Positions 3,724-29,338 of a DNA stretch of 40,565 bases are shown piece by piece. The stretch's first letter is position 1; every line of letters begins with the position of its first letter. The stretch lies in assembly GCA_029973975.1 (NCBI GenBank), contig JARKQF010000084.1:1-40565 (forward strand). The letters are read 5' to 3'. The position numbers and the translations under genes were made by a program. This stretch comes from Paludibacter sp. (lineage in GTDB: Bacteria; Bacteroidota; Bacteroidia; Bacteroidales; Paludibacteraceae). The notes beneath the pieces were generated by a model. It made no database searches, had not been told where the DNA came from, and saw nothing but the letters and a program-made list of their open reading frames with translations.

Positions 3724-4743
3724 ATGAGAACAAAGAATTTATTACCCGTTGTTTTGTTGATAGGAATGAGTTCCTGCATCGATGACCTGAATATCCCGCT
3801 CAACACCTATCGAGGCAATTTTGAAACTTTGTGGACAATTGTGGATACCCGTTATTGTTATCTTGATCTTAAAAAAATAAACTGGGATTCTGTTTATACT
3901 GTTTATGAAGGCCGGTTAGTGAATGATACGGTTGATGAAATTACCTTTTTCGATGCAATGGCTGAAATGCTGGCAGAGTTAAAAGACGGACATGTTAATC
4001 TGTATTCTTCATTTGACAGGAGCAGGTATTGGAATTGGTTTACAGATTACCCGACCAATTTTAACGAATCTCTGATTTTTAACGAGAATTATCTGAGCAA
4101 TGACTACAGAAGTGTTAATGGATTGAGATATAAAAGTATAGCCGGAGGTAAAGTCGGTTATATATACTATGAAAGTTTTGGGAGCGGATTCTCTGATGCC
4201 AATATGAGTTACATTTTTCAGCAATTTGTATCCTGTGAGAACGGATTGATTATAGATGTCAGGAATAACGGAGGTGGTTCTGCCGATTTATCCGGAAGAT
4301 TAGCATCCTACTTTTTCGAGCGGGATACAGTAAATATGTATTTACAACATAAAAATGGGCCTGGTCATAATGATTTTTCGGAACCTGTGCCTATGAAAAC
4401 ACCTGCACATAAAACGATTCGATGGACAAGGCCGGTTGTTGTGTTGGCAAACAGGGCATCATATAGTGCGACCAACTTATTTGTAAGCAGAATGAGAGAT
4501 GCTCCGCAGACAATTATTATGGGAGATAAATCCGGTGGAGGCGGAGGGATGCCGCTTTCCAATGAATTACCGAATGGATGGATGGTACGTTTTTCTGCCA
4601 GCCCTATGTATGACGGAAGTATGCAGCACATCGAGTTTGGAATTGATCCGGATATCAAGGTCGATTTGGATTCGGCTGATGTAGCAAAGGGAGAGGATAC
4701 GTTGATTGAACGAGCTGTAAGCTACTTGATTAATGGAAATTAA
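3724..4743 (+). CDS. S41-family (tail-specific/CtpA-like) peptidase lipoprotein
   Basis: The 339-aa protein begins with a lipoprotein signal, hydrophobic core then MSSC with Cys18 as the probable lipidation site. Residues about 30-105 are a helical N-terminal region (ETLWTIVDTRYC, LAELKDGHVNLY) typical of S41 proteins lacking a clear PDZ domain. The S41 core follows: GKVGYIYYESF, then GLIIDVRNNGGGSAD at about 174-188, then ANRASYSATNLF, where Ser248 is the expected nucleophile. The catalytic lysine would lie about 25 residues further on, near MGDKSGGGGGMP (K at about 268), so the dyad looks intact. It probably acts on the periplasmic side of a membrane. Substrate unknown. It is the last gene of the run starting at 1485 and is followed 5 nt later by a long palindromic repeat. 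Confidence 0.87.
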   Translation: MRTKNLLPVVLLIGMSSCIDDLNIPLNTYRGNFETLWTIVDTRYCYLDLKKINWDSVYTVYEGRLVNDTVDEITFFDAMAEMLAELKDGHVNLYSSFDRSRYWNWFTDYPTNFNESLIFNENYLSNDYRSVNGLRYKSIAGGKVGYIYYESFGSGFSDANMSYIFQQFVSCENGLIIDVRNNGGGSADLSGRLASYFFERDTVNMYLQHKNGPGHNDFSEPVPMKTPAHKTIRWTRPVVVLANRASYSATNLFVSRMRDAPQTIIMGDKSGGGGGMPLSNELPNGWMVRFSASPMYDGSMQHIEFGIDPDIKVDLDSADVAKGEDTLIERAVSYLINGN

Positions 4744-4747
4744 TAAT

Positions 4748-4897
4748 AACCACAAAAGGCACAAAAGAAAGACTGAGGAAACACAAAAGAACTAATAGCG
4801 AATAGTGATGAAAAAAAACCTCTATTAATTCTTAATTTATAATTTTTGATTTTCACTTTTGTGTTTCCTCAGTCTTTCTTTTGTGCCTTTTGTGTTT
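4748..4897. repeat. Long palindromic repeat, copy 1 (38-bp perfect arms, 68-nt loop)
   Basis: The left arm 4748-4788 and right arm 4857-4897 are reverse complements over 41 positions with one mismatch; 4751-4788 pairs perfectly with 4857-4894 (38 bp). The arms are built from CACAAAAGGCACAAAAG-like units. The AT-rich middle contains CCTCTATTAATTCTTAATTT. The segment 4804-4863 is 59/60 identical to 8736-8795 in copy 2. No open reading frame or target-site duplication is evident, so this looks like a non-autonomous dispersed element. It fills the gap between the S41 gene and the SpoU gene almost completely. Confidence 0.93.
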
Positions 4898-4909
4898 CAA
4901 AAACAAAAA

Positions 4910-5452
4910 ATGAGAAAACTTAAAATAACAGAATTAAATCGGTTAACGCCGGACGAATTTCAGCAAGAAACAAAAACCCCGTTGGTGGTCGTGCTGGACC
5001 ATGTGAGGAGCCTGCACAATGTTGGTTCGGTATTCCGGACCGGAGATGCTTTTTTAATTGAGTCGATTTACTTGTGTGGTATCACCTCAACTCCTCCTCA
5101 CCCTGAAATTCATAAAACAGCATTAGGAGCAGAAGATACGGTAAGCTGGACTTATTTTGAGGACACCTGTGATGCCGTTGAAAAACTTAAAGCAAATGGT
5201 TATAGAGTCCTGGCTATTGAACAGGCTGAAGGAAGTATCTTGCTGCAGAATTTAGTGCTTGATAGAAATCAAAAGGTTGCTGTGGTGTTTGGTAATGAAG
5301 TGAAGGGAGTACAACAAAAAGTTATTGATTTATGTGATGCCTGTATCGAGATTCCGCAATACGGAACCAAACACTCGTTGAATGTGAGTGTGACAGGAGG
5401 CATTGTTATTTGGGAATTGTTTAAAAAATTACGTCATGGACTGGAGAGATAA
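4910..5452 (+). CDS. SpoU/TrmH-family RNA 2'-O-methyltransferase
   Basis: The 180-aa protein is a minimal SPOUT methyltransferase that should use S-adenosylmethionine to 2'-O-methylate tRNA or rRNA. The three SpoU motifs are present: HVRSLHNVGSVFRTGDAF at 31-48 (Asn37, Arg43), VVFGNEVKGV at 125-134, and IPQYGTKHSLNVSVTGG at 148-164, which forms the trefoil-knot AdoMet pocket. There is no N-terminal RNA-binding extension, so the target is uncertain. I use ATG 4910 (MRKLKITELN); the 17 extra in-frame codons upstream are simply the right arm of the palindromic repeat being read through. The next gene overlaps its 3' end by 17 nt. Confidence 0.9.
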   Translation: MRKLKITELNRLTPDEFQQETKTPLVVVLDHVRSLHNVGSVFRTGDAFLIESIYLCGITSTPPHPEIHKTALGAEDTVSWTYFEDTCDAVEKLKANGYRVLAIEQAEGSILLQNLVLDRNQKVAVVFGNEVKGVQQKVIDLCDACIEIPQYGTKHSLNVSVTGGIVIWELFKKLRHGLER

Positions 5453-5810
5453 GTTAAATGCAATGAAACAGGATTTACCTGAAGGAGAAGAAATACCTGT
5501 TGTGACTGAACCTGTGAAAAAACGTCAACAAGAACCTTTGCGTGTCGAGTTGGATAAGCGTAACGGCAAACCAGCGACTATTATTTCTCAATTTGAAGGA
5601 ACTGAAGATGAATTGAAAGAATTAGCAAAAACGCTGAAGGTTAGATGCAGTTCAGGTGGCTCTTCCCGTGACGGAGAGATATTAATACAGGGAGATTTCC
5701 GTGAAAAAATAGCCGGGCTCCTTTTGGAACTCGGCTACAAAATAAAACGCATTAACTTTCCTACACCTCCCACTGCTCCAAAGAATCAATCAGGTCATCG
5801 AAAGTTTTGA
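5436..5810 (+). CDS. SUI1/eIF1-like translation initiation factor (YciH family)
   Basis: The 124-aa protein starts at MDWRDKLNAM, which fits the N-terminus I recall for Bacteroidota YciH-type proteins. A polar linker precedes the SUI1 domain at about 36-106: LDKRNGKPATIISQFEG, LAKTLKVRCSSGGSSRDG (the basic/glycine loop) and EILIQGDFREKIAGLLLELG. The family is related to eukaryotic eIF1 and is thought to act on the ribosome during start selection, though its bacterial role is poorly defined. It overlaps the SpoU gene by 17 nt, so coupling is likely. Unusually, residues 109-124 (TPPTAPKNQSGHRKF region) extend past the domain and lie entirely antisense to the end of korB, giving a 50-bp convergent overlap. 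Confidence 0.88.
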   Translation: MDWRDKLNAMKQDLPEGEEIPVVTEPVKKRQQEPLRVELDKRNGKPATIISQFEGTEDELKELAKTLKVRCSSGGSSRDGEILIQGDFREKIAGLLLELGYKIKRINFPTPPTAPKNQSGHRKF

Positions 5811-6789
5811 TACTTGATTTTTCCTGTTCTTTGGCGATTTGGTTGATAATGGCATCATTATAGGTTTCAGCAGGAACATCCCTGATAACACCGAGTGCAA
5901 TGGGGAAATCCGGACCTTCCATGTAAATGAGTTTCAGGTGGAGTGTCGGATCCTGAGTTTTTGCATCGTGAGTCAGAATATCATTTTCGGTAATACCGTT
6001 TTCGCCGATGGTAACTACTTTCAGGTTGAAACCATCAAGAACAAGCCCCTTGTTTCTCTCTTTTCCAAAGATCATTTTCTGACCGTGCTCCAATACGATG
6101 ATTCTGTCTTCACGCGACGTTTTTTCTGAAAGCCATCCGTGGGCACCATCATTGAAGATAATGCAGTTCACGAGACATTCAACCACTGAGGTGCCTTTGT
6201 GTTGTGCGGCAGCCATCATGGTCATTTGGGATGATTTGAGATCGACATCCAACACCCTTCCGAAGAAAGACCCTCTGGCTCCGATTGTTAATTCTCCCGG
6301 ACGGAATGATTGTTCTACAGTGCCGTATGGAGATGATTTGGTTTTAAATCCTTTAGGTGTTGTCGGTGAAAACTGACCTTTTGTTAACCCGTAAATCTGG
6401 TTGTTGAAAATCAGCACATTGATATCTATGTTACGGCGCACGCTGTGGATAAAATGATTTCCTCCGATAGCCAGACAGTCTCCGTCGCCGGTGATCTGCC
6501 AAACCGTCAGATCCGGATTTGCAACTTTCACACCAGTGGCCACCGCAGCACCACGGCCGTGGATGGTATGAAAGCCATAACCGCTGATGTAATAAGGCAG
6601 GCGAGACGAACATCCGATGCCAGATATTACAGCCGTATTAGCAGGAGATACGCCTAATTCAGCCATCACCTTCTGAAGTGAGGATAAAATCGCGTAGTCA
6701 CCACAAGCAGGGCACCAGCGCACATACTGATCGCTTTTAAAATCTTTGGCCGTATATTGAATTTCCTGATTTTTCTGAATTGTTTCCAT
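5761..6789 (-). CDS. korB: 2-oxoacid:ferredoxin oxidoreductase, beta subunit
   Basis: The 342-aa thiamine-diphosphate subunit has WCPACGD at 25-31, GHIG-equivalent region HTIHGRGAAVATG at 74-86, and the TPP/Mg motif GDGDCLAIGG at 101-110 closed by FNNQIYGLTKGQ at 128-139. This is the pattern of 2-oxoglutarate (or broader 2-oxoacid):ferredoxin oxidoreductase KorB. The complex oxidatively decarboxylates a 2-oxoacid to acyl-CoA, passing electrons to ferredoxin in the cytoplasm; it can also run reductively. It starts 6 nt after korA and is clearly co-transcribed with it. Its last 50 nt overlap the convergent SUI1 gene. The exact substrate (2-oxoglutarate, pyruvate or branched-chain) cannot be settled from sequence alone. 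Confidence 0.93.
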   Translation of the reverse strand: METIQKNQEIQYTAKDFKSDQYVRWCPACGDYAILSSLQKVMAELGVSPANTAVISGIGCSSRLPYYISGYGFHTIHGRGAAVATGVKVANPDLTVWQITGDGDCLAIGGNHFIHSVRRNIDINVLIFNNQIYGLTKGQFSPTTPKGFKTKSSPYGTVEQSFRPGELTIGARGSFFGRVLDVDLKSSQMTMMAAAQHKGTSVVECLVNCIIFNDGAHGWLSEKTSREDRIIVLEHGQKMIFGKERNKGLVLDGFNLKVVTIGENGITENDILTHDAKTQDPTLHLKLIYMEGPDFPIALGVIRDVPAETYNDAIINQIAKEQEKSSIKTFDDLIDSLEQWEV

Positions 6790-6795
6790 GATACA

Positions 6796-8640
6796 TTATT
6801 TTAAAAGTGAACTGATGTGGTCTTCCAGTTCAGAAGCAGAAAATGGCTGTCCCTGAACTTTGTTGTACTGAAGATATTCTCCCGGGACTTTTGTACGCAG
6901 AAACGAAGCGAACTGTCCGCTATTCAATTCACAAACAACCACTTTTTTATATTTCTGAATCACCTCTGCCGTATTTTTCGGGAGCGGATTGATGTAATTA
7001 AAATGTGCCAAAGCCACCTTTTTACCGTTCTTATTGATACTGTTGACAGCTGATATCAAATGACCGTGTGTAGAGCCCCAGCCAACAACCAATAAGTCGG
7101 CATCGGGATTTCCTTCTACTTTTACATCAGGGATTACGTTCGAAATATAATCGATTTTAGCCTGACGTGTATTCACCATTTTTTGGTGATTAACCGGATC
7201 TGTTGAAATGGCTCCTGAATCATAATCTTTTTCAAGACCACCGTTTCTTTGTTCAAATCCGGGTGTTCCCGGGATGGTCCAGTAACGCACTTTCGTTTCC
7301 GGATCGCGGGCAGTAACTTTCAGACCTTCCATACCGGGCTTTGCATAGTTAGGCTGAATTTGTTGTAAATCGGCTAATTTAGGTAATTTCCAAAGAGAGG
7401 AACCATTTCCGATGAAAGCGTCGGTAAGTAGAATTACCGGTGTCATGTGTTCCAAAGCAATTTTTGAAGCCATATAAGCATAATGGAAGCAATTCGCCGG
7501 AGTAGATGCGGCCATCACAACAACAGGGCTCTCTCCGTTTCTACCGTAGATAGCTTGTAACAAGTCCGTTTGTTCCGTTTTTGTAGGCAAGCCGGTTGAC
7601 GGTCCACCGCGCATTACGTCGACAACAACAATAGGGAGCTCCGCCATCACAGCCAGTCCGATTGCTTCTGTTTTCAGCGCCAATCCCGGTCCTGATGTAT
7701 TTGTAGCTGCCAGCGAGCCTGCAAATGAAGCTCCGAGTGCCGTGGTTATACCGGCAATTTCATCTTCTGCCTGTACCACTTTCACTCCCATATCTTTTCT
7801 GAGCGCCAACTCATGCATAATGTCCGAAGCCGGTGTAATAGGGTAGCTACCCAGAAACAATTCAAGACCTGCTTTTTTAGCAGCGGCTATCAGCCCCCAG
7901 GCAGTAGCCTTATTTCCGTTGATGCTGGTGTATTTACCTTTTGGAGTTTCCTCCGATTTGTCAACCAGATAGGTTGTTAAAGAAAGATGGATGTTATTAC
8001 CATAATTAAAACCATCAGTCAATACTTTCAGGTTAGCCTGCAAAATATCCGGTTTCTTTTTGAATTTATCAGTCAGGAAATGCATAGCCTGATCGATGGG
8101 GCGATTGAAAAGCCAACAAATCAGACCGAGCGCAAACATGTTTTTACTCCGCATAACGGTCTTATTATCCAGATCAAAATCTTTCAGACTATCCTGTGTT
8201 ACAGACGTGAGCGGTACCGGGACTAATTGTATTGTATCCGACATGCCAAGTTCCTCGAAAGGATTTTCGGTTTTAAATTCGGCCTTCTCCAAATCTCTTT
8301 TACCGAATGAATCCGCATCGAAAATAAGCACACCATGTTTTTTGAGACCTTTGGCATTCACTTTTAATGCAGCAGGATTCATGGCAACCATTACATCGGC
8401 ATCGTCGCCAGGTGTGTAGATTTTTCCTGACCCTAAATGCACCTGAAACCCTGAAACGCCTCCCAGCGTTCCCTGGGGTGCACGGATTTCAGAAGGAAAG
8501 TCAGGGAAAGTAGAAATTTCGTTCCCTAAAATCGCCGACAAGTTGGAAAATAATGTTCCGGTAAGTTGCATTCCATCACCCGAGTCGCCCGTGAAACGGA
8601 TTACAACGCTTTCCAGTTCGGTTGTTTTGTGTTTTTCCAT
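6796..8640 (-). CDS. korA: 2-oxoacid:ferredoxin oxidoreductase, fused gamma-alpha subunit
   Basis: This 614-aa protein combines the gamma domain (about 10-185; VIRFTGDSGDGMQLTG at 14-29 at the front) with the alpha pyrimidine-binding domain (from about 225; GNKATAWGLIAAAKKAG, then GSYPITPASDIMHEL). Other landmarks are QAEDEIAGITTALGASFAG and TNTSGPGLALKTEAIGLAVMAELP, typical of KorA from Bacteroidota and Archaea. It forms the catalytic complex with KorB; no separate ferredoxin-like delta subunit is encoded beside it, as usual for the two-subunit type. The gene lies downstream of asnS on the same strand, with palindromic repeat copy 2 filling the 217-nt gap. Confidence 0.93.
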   Translation of the reverse strand: MEKHKTTELESVVIRFTGDSGDGMQLTGTLFSNLSAILGNEISTFPDFPSEIRAPQGTLGGVSGFQVHLGSGKIYTPGDDADVMVAMNPAALKVNAKGLKKHGVLIFDADSFGKRDLEKAEFKTENPFEELGMSDTIQLVPVPLTSVTQDSLKDFDLDNKTVMRSKNMFALGLICWLFNRPIDQAMHFLTDKFKKKPDILQANLKVLTDGFNYGNNIHLSLTTYLVDKSEETPKGKYTSINGNKATAWGLIAAAKKAGLELFLGSYPITPASDIMHELALRKDMGVKVVQAEDEIAGITTALGASFAGSLAATNTSGPGLALKTEAIGLAVMAELPIVVVDVMRGGPSTGLPTKTEQTDLLQAIYGRNGESPVVVMAASTPANCFHYAYMASKIALEHMTPVILLTDAFIGNGSSLWKLPKLADLQQIQPNYAKPGMEGLKVTARDPETKVRYWTIPGTPGFEQRNGGLEKDYDSGAISTDPVNHQKMVNTRQAKIDYISNVIPDVKVEGNPDADLLVVGWGSTHGHLISAVNSINKNGKKVALAHFNYINPLPKNTAEVIQKYKKVVVCELNSGQFASFLRTKVPGEYLQYNKVQGQPFSASELEDHISSLLK

Positions 8641-8673
8641 ATCTATATTGGAATTTTAAATTTTAATTTTTTG

Positions 8674-8830
8674 AACCACAAAAGGCACAAAACAAAAACA
8701 AAGGAAACACAAAACCAATAATAGTGAATAACGAAAGTGATGAAAAAAAACCTCTATTAATTCTTAATTTATAATTTTTAATTTTCACTTTTGTGGTTCC
8801 TTAGTTTTTCTTTTGTGTCTTTTGTGGTTT
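8674..8830. repeat. Long palindromic repeat, copy 2
   Basis: The left arm 8674-8714 and right arm about 8790-8830 are imperfect inverted repeats built from the same AACCACAAAAGGCACAAAA-type units as copy 1. The interior 8736-8795 matches 4804-4863 of copy 1 at 59 of 60 positions. Arm changes relative to copy 1 include at least two substitutions present on both arms, so base pairing is kept. The copy is in direct orientation relative to copy 1 but opposite in sense to the asnS-korAB genes around it. Confidence 0.92.
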
Positions 8831-8857: not shown

Positions 8858-10255
8858 TTAAAACTCTGCATTGTTCGGTGTTCTCGGGAACGGAATTACG
8901 TCGCGGATATTGGTCATACCGGTTACGAATAGCATAAGCCGTTCGAAACCCAGTCCGAACCCAGCGTGAGGTGCAGTTCCAAAGCGACGGGTATCCAGGT
9001 ACCACCAAATGTCTTTTTCCGGCACATCCATTTCCGCTGCGCGGGTTTTGAGCTTGGTGTAGTCCTCCTCCCTTTGAGAACCGCCGATGATTTCTCCTAT
9101 CTTCGGGAAAAGCACATCCATGGCGCGAACCGTCTTGCCGTCATCGTTTTGCTTCATATAGAAAGACTTGATTTCTTTCGGGTAGTCCGTCAGAATAACT
9201 GGTTTTTTGAAGTGTTTTTCCACCAGATAGCGTTCGTGTTCTGATTGCAGGTCGGTACCCCAACCAACAGGGAATTCAAACTTCACACCGTTGGCAACGG
9301 CTTCTTCCAATATCTTGATACCCTCCGTGTAAGTCAGACGAACAAAGTCATTGTTAACAACAAAGTTTAACCTTTCTATCAATTCTTTATCATACATTTC
9401 ATTCAGGAATTTCAGGTCATCCTGGCAATTTTCCAGAGCCCAGCGGATACAATACTGAATAAAATCCTGCGCCAGTTGCATGTTTTCGGCAATCTCGTAG
9501 AAAGCCACTTCCGGTTCAATCATCCAGAATTCGGCTAAGTGGCGGGGTGTATTTGAGTTTTCAGCGCGGAAGGTCGGGCCAAAAGTATAAATTGCACCCA
9601 TAGCCATGGCAGCCAATTCTCCCTCAAGTTGTCCCGAAACAGTCAGACTGGTTTGCTTTCCGAAGAAATCGTTATCGTAGTCAATCGAGCCGTTTTCATC
9701 TTTCTTCAGGTCATACAGGTTCATGGTGGTTACCTGGAACATTTGTCCGGCACCTTCGCAGTCGGAACCCGTGATAATAGGTGTGTGGAAGTAGAAGAAA
9801 CCCCTTTCGTGAAAAAAAGTATGGATGGCCATCGACATGTGGTGACGCATGCGAAAGATGGCTCCGAAAGTATTTGTTCTCGGACGCAAGTGTGCAATTT
9901 CCCGCAGGAATTCAAGCGTATGCCCTTTTTTCTGAAGTGGGTAGGACTCCGGATCAGCAGTTCCGTAAATTTCGATTTTATCCGCATGAATTTCTACTGT
10001 TTGACCTTTTCCAAGCGATTCGGTCAGTTTGCCGGTAACACTGATACAAGCGCCTGTGGTTATTGGTTTGAGGTATTCTTCCTCAAACTTCTCATTGTCG
10101 ACAACAATCTGGATGTTATTGATGGTGGAGCCGTCGTTGAGGGCGATAAAGCTCACGTTTTTATTACCGCGGCGGGTTCTTACCCAGCCTTTTATGTTTA
10201 CATCAGCGCCAAAGTCAGTCCTTTTGAGGGCGGCGGAAATTACAGTTCTGGTCAT
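8858..10255 (-). CDS. asnS: Asparaginyl-tRNA synthetase
   Basis: The 465-aa class IIb aminoacyl-tRNA synthetase charges tRNA-Asn with asparagine. An N-terminal OB-fold anticodon-binding domain (about 15-105; [18 protein letters not shown]) precedes the catalytic core. Motif 2 is [21 protein letters not shown] at about 220-240, and motif 3 is [15 protein letters not shown] at about 430-445. The [10 protein letters not shown] form and the end [10 protein letters not shown] favour AsnRS over AspRS. A TAnnTTTG element sits about 84 nt upstream of the ATG. The gene is followed on the same strand by a palindromic repeat and korAB, but co-transcription through the repeat is uncertain. Confidence 0.97.
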
Positions 10256-15568: not shown

Positions 15569-15598
15569 GCTTTCGCTTTCTGTTTTCAGTTTTCCGCT
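15569..15598 (-). repeat. Small dispersed repeat just after the fba stop codon
   Basis: On the minus strand this reads AGCGGAAAACTGAAAACAG followed by AAAGCGAAA. It matches 29311-29338, located directly after the sufB stop codon in the same orientation, at 26 of 28 positions. Confidence 0.7.
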
Positions 15599-15601
15599 AA
15601 A

Positions 15602-29309: not shown

Positions 29310-29310
29310 T

Positions 29311-29338
29311 AGCGAAAAACTGAAAACTGAAAGCGAAA
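29311..29338 (+). repeat. Small dispersed repeat just after the sufB stop codon
   Basis: AGCGAAAAACTGAAAACTG then AAAGCGAAA begins one base after the sufB TAA. It is 26/28 identical to the element after the fba stop (15569-15598, minus strand). The 88-nt sufB-sufC gap contains nothing else notable. Confidence 0.7.

Follow-up and report, generated by a model that had tools for sequence, protein, structure and literature searches.

Two intergenic palindromes, A and B, in a 40,565-nt stretch of a Paludibacter sp. genome (contig JARKQF010000084.1 of assembly GCA_029973975.1; the whole stretch analysed is called the window) are probably non-autonomous elements resembling miniature inverted-repeat transposable elements (MITEs). 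They belong to an intercistronic palindromic family whose complete form appears to carry a gene for a GxxExxY protein, a nuclease that would spread and change the elements by cutting hairpins formed by their arms. This reading is based on arms that occur both around the gene and in its absence, on their dispersal, on the matching of the two arms within a copy and on the inversion of loops between orthologues. The two palindromes are made up as follows.

4748 to 4897, no strand: element A, a palindrome with arms of the CACAAAAG family, flanked by two plus-strand genes
4748 to 4789, plus strand: left arm of A, 42 nt, 98% complementary to 4856 to 4897
4790 to 4855, no strand: loop of A, 66 nt, type 1 in the loop comparison, inverted relative to its orthologue L085 of Paludibacter sp. 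RC263 (taken as G026:C25)
4856 to 4897, minus strand: right arm of A, 42 nt, pairing with the left arm
8674 to 8829, no strand: element B, a palindrome of the same CACAAAAG family, flanked by two minus-strand genes, asnS and that of the 2-oxoacid oxidoreductase alpha subunit
8674 to 8714, plus strand: left arm of B, 41 nt (inverted-repeat finder)
8715 to 8788, no strand: loop of B, 74 nt (inverted-repeat finder, loop comparison)
8789 to 8829, minus strand: right arm of B, 41 nt (inverted-repeat finder)

Both palindromes are real, as the initial annotation had held: their arms are long and complementary, and none of 200 dinucleotide shuffles folds as well. RNA folding gives z-scores of -13.4 for A and -7.0 for B, and DNA folding, calculated on A only, gives -14.0. 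They are the sole inverted repeats in the window with a score above 30 in our own finder. The two arms of B are identical at 35 of 40 compared positions; between A and B, whole loops are 86% and arms 87.5% identical. The arms were correctly assigned to the CACAAAAGG type, and both arm differences quoted for the second copy occur on both of its arms. The related 17-mer named alongside, ACCACAAAGGCACAAAG, is not this genome's word, with 10 matches at up to 3 mismatches against 20 for a reversed control. A 60-nt segment (4804-4863 and 8736-8795) had been described as covering most of the interior; its identity of 59/60 stands, but its final 8 nt lie in the right arm.

The link to a nuclease gene comes from a relative of the window's genome. 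At locus L227 (G023:C8), the same arms as those of the window elements enclose a GxxExxY gene. The encoded protein matches TIGR04256 and PF13366 (PDDEXK_3) above the curated cut-offs (E 1.6e-39 and 5.7e-38); GxxExxY proteins have roughly 130 residues and belong to the PD-(D/E)XK nuclease family. Five residues, E30, D70, E80, K82 and Q94, in the order E, D, E-x-K, Q, are invariant in all seven aligned GxxExxY proteins, and we take them to be catalytic. The last motif can presumably be read as a RecB-like QxxxY, the tyrosine of which is present in 6 of the 7 sequences. The L227 protein also matches Cas4 weakly (PADLOC E 6.6e-4; Pfam Cas4 E 0.01, below cut-off), and there is a weak match of the GxxExxY protein to a CRISPR/Cas-associated phage family (E 0.0019). 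The descriptions of TIGR04256 and PF13366 in the profile library give no role, and a search among solved structures gave no convincing relative. In G026, taken as Paludibacter sp. RC263, the slot corresponding to L227 holds a GxxExxY gene 61% identical to the first, this time inside CATATAAG arms, and 23 further CATATAAG palindromes without the gene occur in 1.63 Mb of that genome. In G030, taken as STF1_158, the same slot holds a CTGACAGG palindrome. The right-end bases GGTTTAAAAATATTAAAATGG are common to all three genomes at this slot. L227 may represent an autonomous relative with the same ends as the window elements, its gene being a putative mobiliser.

Palindromic intergenic repeats of this kind are common and, as far as is known, unassigned. 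The initial annotation would have been refuted had A and B been the only copies, with no covariation; the window's own assembly (358 contigs, 85.7% complete) instead gives 61 BLAST matches to the palindrome and 25 places with these arms among the loci examined, 13 two-armed and 12 one-armed. Within the genus, 21 of 48 genomes have some BLAST match, and the best E falls below 1e-40 only in G000, G023, G026 and G031. Places with these arms number at least 21 in G023, at least 18 in G026, at least 13 in G031 and at least 4 in G030. The family is short, gene-less and multi-copy and has inverted ends, as MITEs do. Among the options listed at first, a non-autonomous mobile unit fits best, given the roughly 25 places in the own genome, the further copies in sister genomes and the nuclease gene that these arms enclose in one of them.

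Arms and loops differ in how they vary. Across 20 loops of the same type (190 pairs; one member, L233, looks wrongly included), mean identity is 73% for loops and 94% for arms, and the loop is more similar than the arms in a single pair. The earlier claim of a loop more conserved than its arms therefore holds only for the chosen 60-nt stretch. Arms were compared in 45 two-armed elements of suitable length, 34 of which have both arms full and ungapped, with pairing counted by script. In 19 of these 34 the two arms are identical over 40 positions, though arms differ between copies; on average arms differ at 1.29 positions within an element and 2.86 between elements. Among 11 orthologue pairs, both arms have changed together at five independent places (two in L003/L219 and one each in window A/L192, L205 and L223 versus L238, and L214/L233). 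The same pairs contain 17 positions with a difference on one arm, of which 8 lie in L206/L224, where mismatches are common to both orthologues.

The loop can also lie in either orientation. Of 23 orthologue pairs, 7 (6 slots) have it inverted and 8 (6 slots) share its orientation, the other 8 being unclear. The clearest flip is L005/L221, whose loops are 99% identical once one is inverted; a 16-mer of this loop is present in only those two of the 417 loci examined, a count of loci and not of whole genomes. As in invertons, a segment is thus found in both orientations, here between species and not within one population. Arm matching together with loop flips fits a hairpin-based process acting on DNA. 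Pairing is often preserved, as the initial annotation had noted, but it goes along with loop inversion, which speaks for the processing of hairpins in DNA no less than for selection on a structured RNA, one of the options of that annotation.

Comparison with relatives indicates that different palindrome families share the same slots. At site B, for which the adjacent KorA gene served as the anchor for finding orthologous sites, the window has CACAAAAG arms, RC263 has CATATAAG arms and STF1_158 has a CTGACAGG palindrome; at site A, the window and RC263 have CACAAAAG and STF1_158 has CTGACAGG. In the 1.63 Mb of G026, a position could be assigned to 30 of the 63 elements of the other genomes, which gives 24 slots once two entries that are the two ends of one GxxExxY slot are merged. 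The same family occupies ten of these slots, CATATAAG palindromes occupy 8, CTGACAGG palindromes 2 and another palindrome 1, while 3 have none, so that 21 of 24 hold some palindrome or the same arm. Site B was counted as CATATAAG although its G026 palindrome has a stray CACAAAAG in the loop, and the L215 slot, also CATATAAG, fell outside the count owing to a 700-nt gap limit. Among the 14 slots without the same family, 8 hold a CATATAAG palindrome, with a chance probability of about 1e-7 on the basis that such palindromes occupy 21 of 400 co-directional G026 spacers of at least 60 nt.

Some loci combine families. In L008, L225, L230, L011, L019 and L024, CATATAAG arms lie inside or adjoin CACAAAAG arms, as would happen if one palindrome inserted into another or overwrote it, and some of these copies retain a single CACAAAAG arm. 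At L215 (G023:C71:6200-10400) there is one CACAAAAG palindrome, whereas G026:C36:40695-42222 has two CATATAAG palindromes about 1.3 kb apart, which suggests that a segment was gained or lost between palindromes.

The association of GxxExxY genes with inverted arms extends beyond these slots. GxxExxY genes are present in 39 of the 48 genus genomes searched and in 28 of 61 genomes of a phylum sample. The genus yielded 51 loci, of which 3 at contig ends were dropped. Inverted arms with a score of at least 16 flank 28 of the 48 usable loci, against 4 of 472 control genes (open reading frames, ORFs, of at least 100 aa from named KorA loci, the majority belonging to other genera) and 45 of 1500 pairs made by swapping flanks; Fisher's test gives p 3e-29 with loci treated as independent. 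In the phylum sample, 13 of 29 loci (1 of 30 dropped) have such arms, compared with 6 of 800 swapped pairs. Seven of eight further genomes contain PF13366, with 16 matches; of the 13 examined, 9 score at least 15, including 5 of 6 from Planctomycetota, values for which no null was computed. The arm words vary by locus (CACAAAAG, CATATAAG, CGCAGAG, CGCAAAG, CACGAAG, CGCGGAT, CGCAAAT, CACTAAG), yet to our reading they look alike and share a common grammar. Both neighbouring genes run in the same direction as the GxxExxY gene in 39 of the 41 genus loci that could be resolved out of 51; the corresponding counts are 21 of 25 for the phylum sample (30 loci) and 8 of 11 for the further genomes (13 loci). 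Three GxxExxY genes of G041 lie in arms that resemble one another, and these arms give 100 BLAST matches in G041 and 73 in G043, counted on both strands with the genes themselves included.

Viral contigs were searched as well. A search with a single protein found no GxxExxY relative in them, whereas a search with an alignment found two loci, L375 with matching arms (score 23.5) and L376 without (7.5). In L375 (IMGVR_UViG_3300032770_000220), the N-terminal residues of the GxxExxY frame overlap CACAAAG-type arm words, and a matching inverted arm lies downstream. An AlphaFold model of one viral-contig GxxExxY protein was unusable (predicted local distance difference test score, pLDDT, 37).

The genes next to the two window elements are the following.

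3724 to 4743, plus strand: S41-type protease-like gene upstream of A (CPAF profile E 3.6e-17, TIGR00225 E 9.5e-17; weak, both below cut-offs)
4910 to 5452, plus strand: RlmB/TrmH-type RNA methyltransferase gene downstream of A (TIGR00186 E 4.9e-29, below the curated cut-off)
6796 to 8640, minus strand: 2-oxoacid:acceptor oxidoreductase alpha subunit (KorA) gene downstream of B (TIGR03710 E 1.5e-194)
8858 to 10255, minus strand: asparagine--tRNA ligase gene (asnS) upstream of B (TIGR00457 E 2.1e-189)

None of the six window genes named by profiles is a recombinase. The window also contains a 29-nt inverted pair of CTGAAAACTGAAAG type, another short-word repeat, at 15571-15599 and 29310-29338.

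In the mechanism that we propose, a complete member would consist of two long inverted arms of spaced CACAAAAG words enclosing one GxxExxY gene, and a short member would keep the arms and have AT-rich filler in place of the gene. The nuclease may act on a hairpin or cruciform formed by the arms and in this way mobilise the elements: cutting, followed by hairpin-templated repair or copying, would lead to their spread. The same cutting and repair could homogenise the arms, flip the loops and replace one palindrome by another. A broader and more tentative proposal is that GxxExxY proteins might be the enzymes of an undescribed prokaryotic superfamily of mobile palindromes. They would be distantly Cas4-like, and their cutting of hairpins or cruciforms made by word-built arms, with repair copying, would yield homogenised arms, flipped loops and displacement of one family by another in fixed intercistronic slots. 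The numerous palindromes with CACAAAGGCACAAAG, CGCAGAG, CGCGGAT and CACGAAT words that stand unassigned in environmental genomes would then be their non-autonomous offspring.

Several observations weigh against mobilisation by the nuclease. A search of the window's own assembly, which is 85.7% complete, gave no GxxExxY gene; the matching contig stops about 95 nt short of the slot. No target-site duplication was seen at the slots compared across relatives. The look for empty sites in relatives that the initial annotation had recommended gave no clean one, and the 3 of 24 G026 slots without a palindrome hold other sequence. In the 34 ungapped elements, departures from the arm consensus affect one arm only in 44 cells and both arms alike in 40; many of the one-arm departures are concentrated in a few decayed copies. 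Arms fall below the threshold at 20 of 48 genus and 16 of 29 phylum loci. A gene-less palindrome with the G041 arms was present in only 3 of 14 other G041 and G043 loci examined, and a search of G009 at E<=1e-3 gave no dispersed match to the arms of the GxxExxY locus L148, which are private to one locus.

Such private arms, and the variation of arm sequences from locus to locus, would also be expected if the gene were a passenger, either settling inside palindromes or captured by them, while the palindromes arise and change by host processes, such as replication template switching and intra-palindrome recombination, or through another mobiliser. Small inversions between short inverted repeats in chloroplasts are put down to homologous recombination in stem-loops (PMC12928735). 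We regard the passenger explanation as rather doubtful: it leaves unexplained why GxxExxY genes, compared with few controls (4/472), sit in matched arms, in other families and phyla too, and why their orientation follows the operon. A role as hairpins of intercistronic RNA, which selection would maintain for a function such as mRNA processing, attenuation or stability while their sequence turns over, would account for slots that keep a palindrome as the family changes, and for the very stable folds. It also agrees with position: in G026, 28 of 31 palindromes of two families, each within one spacer, lie between co-directional genes against a background of 400 of 606 spacers (p 0.002; genes called with our own simple ORF caller), and many of the 31 take up most of their spacer. 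One-arm mismatches on the sense strand lean towards G-T, which is G-U as RNA (14 versus 8 A-C; p 0.29, not significant, with 4 elements of unclear orientation excluded), and these counts do not decide for or against selection on RNA. At site B, however, CACAAAAG, CATATAAG and CTGACAGG palindromes are absent by eye from the other 27 of 30 KorA loci, some of which have other short hairpins; the window has no Rfam match at the gathering score, and loop content and orientation are free to change. We consider the RNA-hairpin explanation unlikely.

Two further explanations are far less probable. The palindromes could be REP or REPIN elements (repetitive extragenic palindromes and their paired forms) mobilised by the REP-associated tyrosine transposase, RAYT, a Y1 transposase. 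Y1_Tnp genes are indeed present in 5 of 5 genomes searched. Among 12 usable RAYT loci (13, one dropped at a contig end), however, 6 have clear inverted repeats with a score of at least 35, none of them with CACAAAAG or CATATAAG arms; no RAYT flank shares the palindrome family (0/12), and a single stray CACAAAAG word occurs in one flank (L186), which makes this explanation highly improbable. In G026, the RAYT genes of L184 and L188 are flanked by long AACCTTATTTTCTTACAAAACAACCTTAGTAGC-type repeats, and AACCTTATTTTCTTACAAAACAACCTTAGTAGC-type palindromes with loops of about 90-105 nt also occur elsewhere in the 1.63 Mb census. The initial annotation had suggested a protein-binding site with a sequence-specific loop, and the 59/60 identity of its chosen segment between the window copies would agree with one. 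We give this almost no weight, as variation is greater in the loops than in the arms, several orthologues have different loops, and loops are found flipped.

The elements, read as palindromes mobilised by a GxxExxY nuclease, have partial counterparts among known systems. REP/REPIN-RAYT systems (PMC6006769, PMC3733652) likewise combine short dispersed extragenic palindromes with a gene for a small nuclease that has related repeats on its flanks. The partner proposed here is a PD-(D/E)XK GxxExxY protein and not a Y1 HuH enzyme, and around the RAYT genes of these genomes there are different repeats or none at all. Correia and ERIC elements are, according to PMC10969869, gene-less MITEs with inverted repeats and mostly intergenic; it gives a 204-bp Correia element, reports inversion of Correia and places ERIC at gene 3' ends. 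In our family, by contrast, a large share of each element consists of its arms, which often match exactly within a copy; different arm families occur in the same slots, target duplication is not seen and the proposed partner is no known transposase. The chloroplast inversions (PMC12928735) resemble our elements in that relatives differ in the orientation of a loop enclosed by short inverted repeats; our palindromes, however, are members of a dispersed family, one version of which bears a nuclease gene. No relevant paper on the arm words was found in the literature searched. The link between GxxExxY genes and palindromes was likewise not found there; most subscription journals lay outside that literature, so this is weak evidence of the link being unreported.

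The presence of GxxExxY genes inside palindromes suggests a testable role for genes whose profile-library entries give none. Their placement points to a possible second pairing of a nuclease with palindromes, beside that of RAYT with REP. The elements also offer bacterial cases for measuring how arms are homogenised, loops flip and palindromes replace one another.

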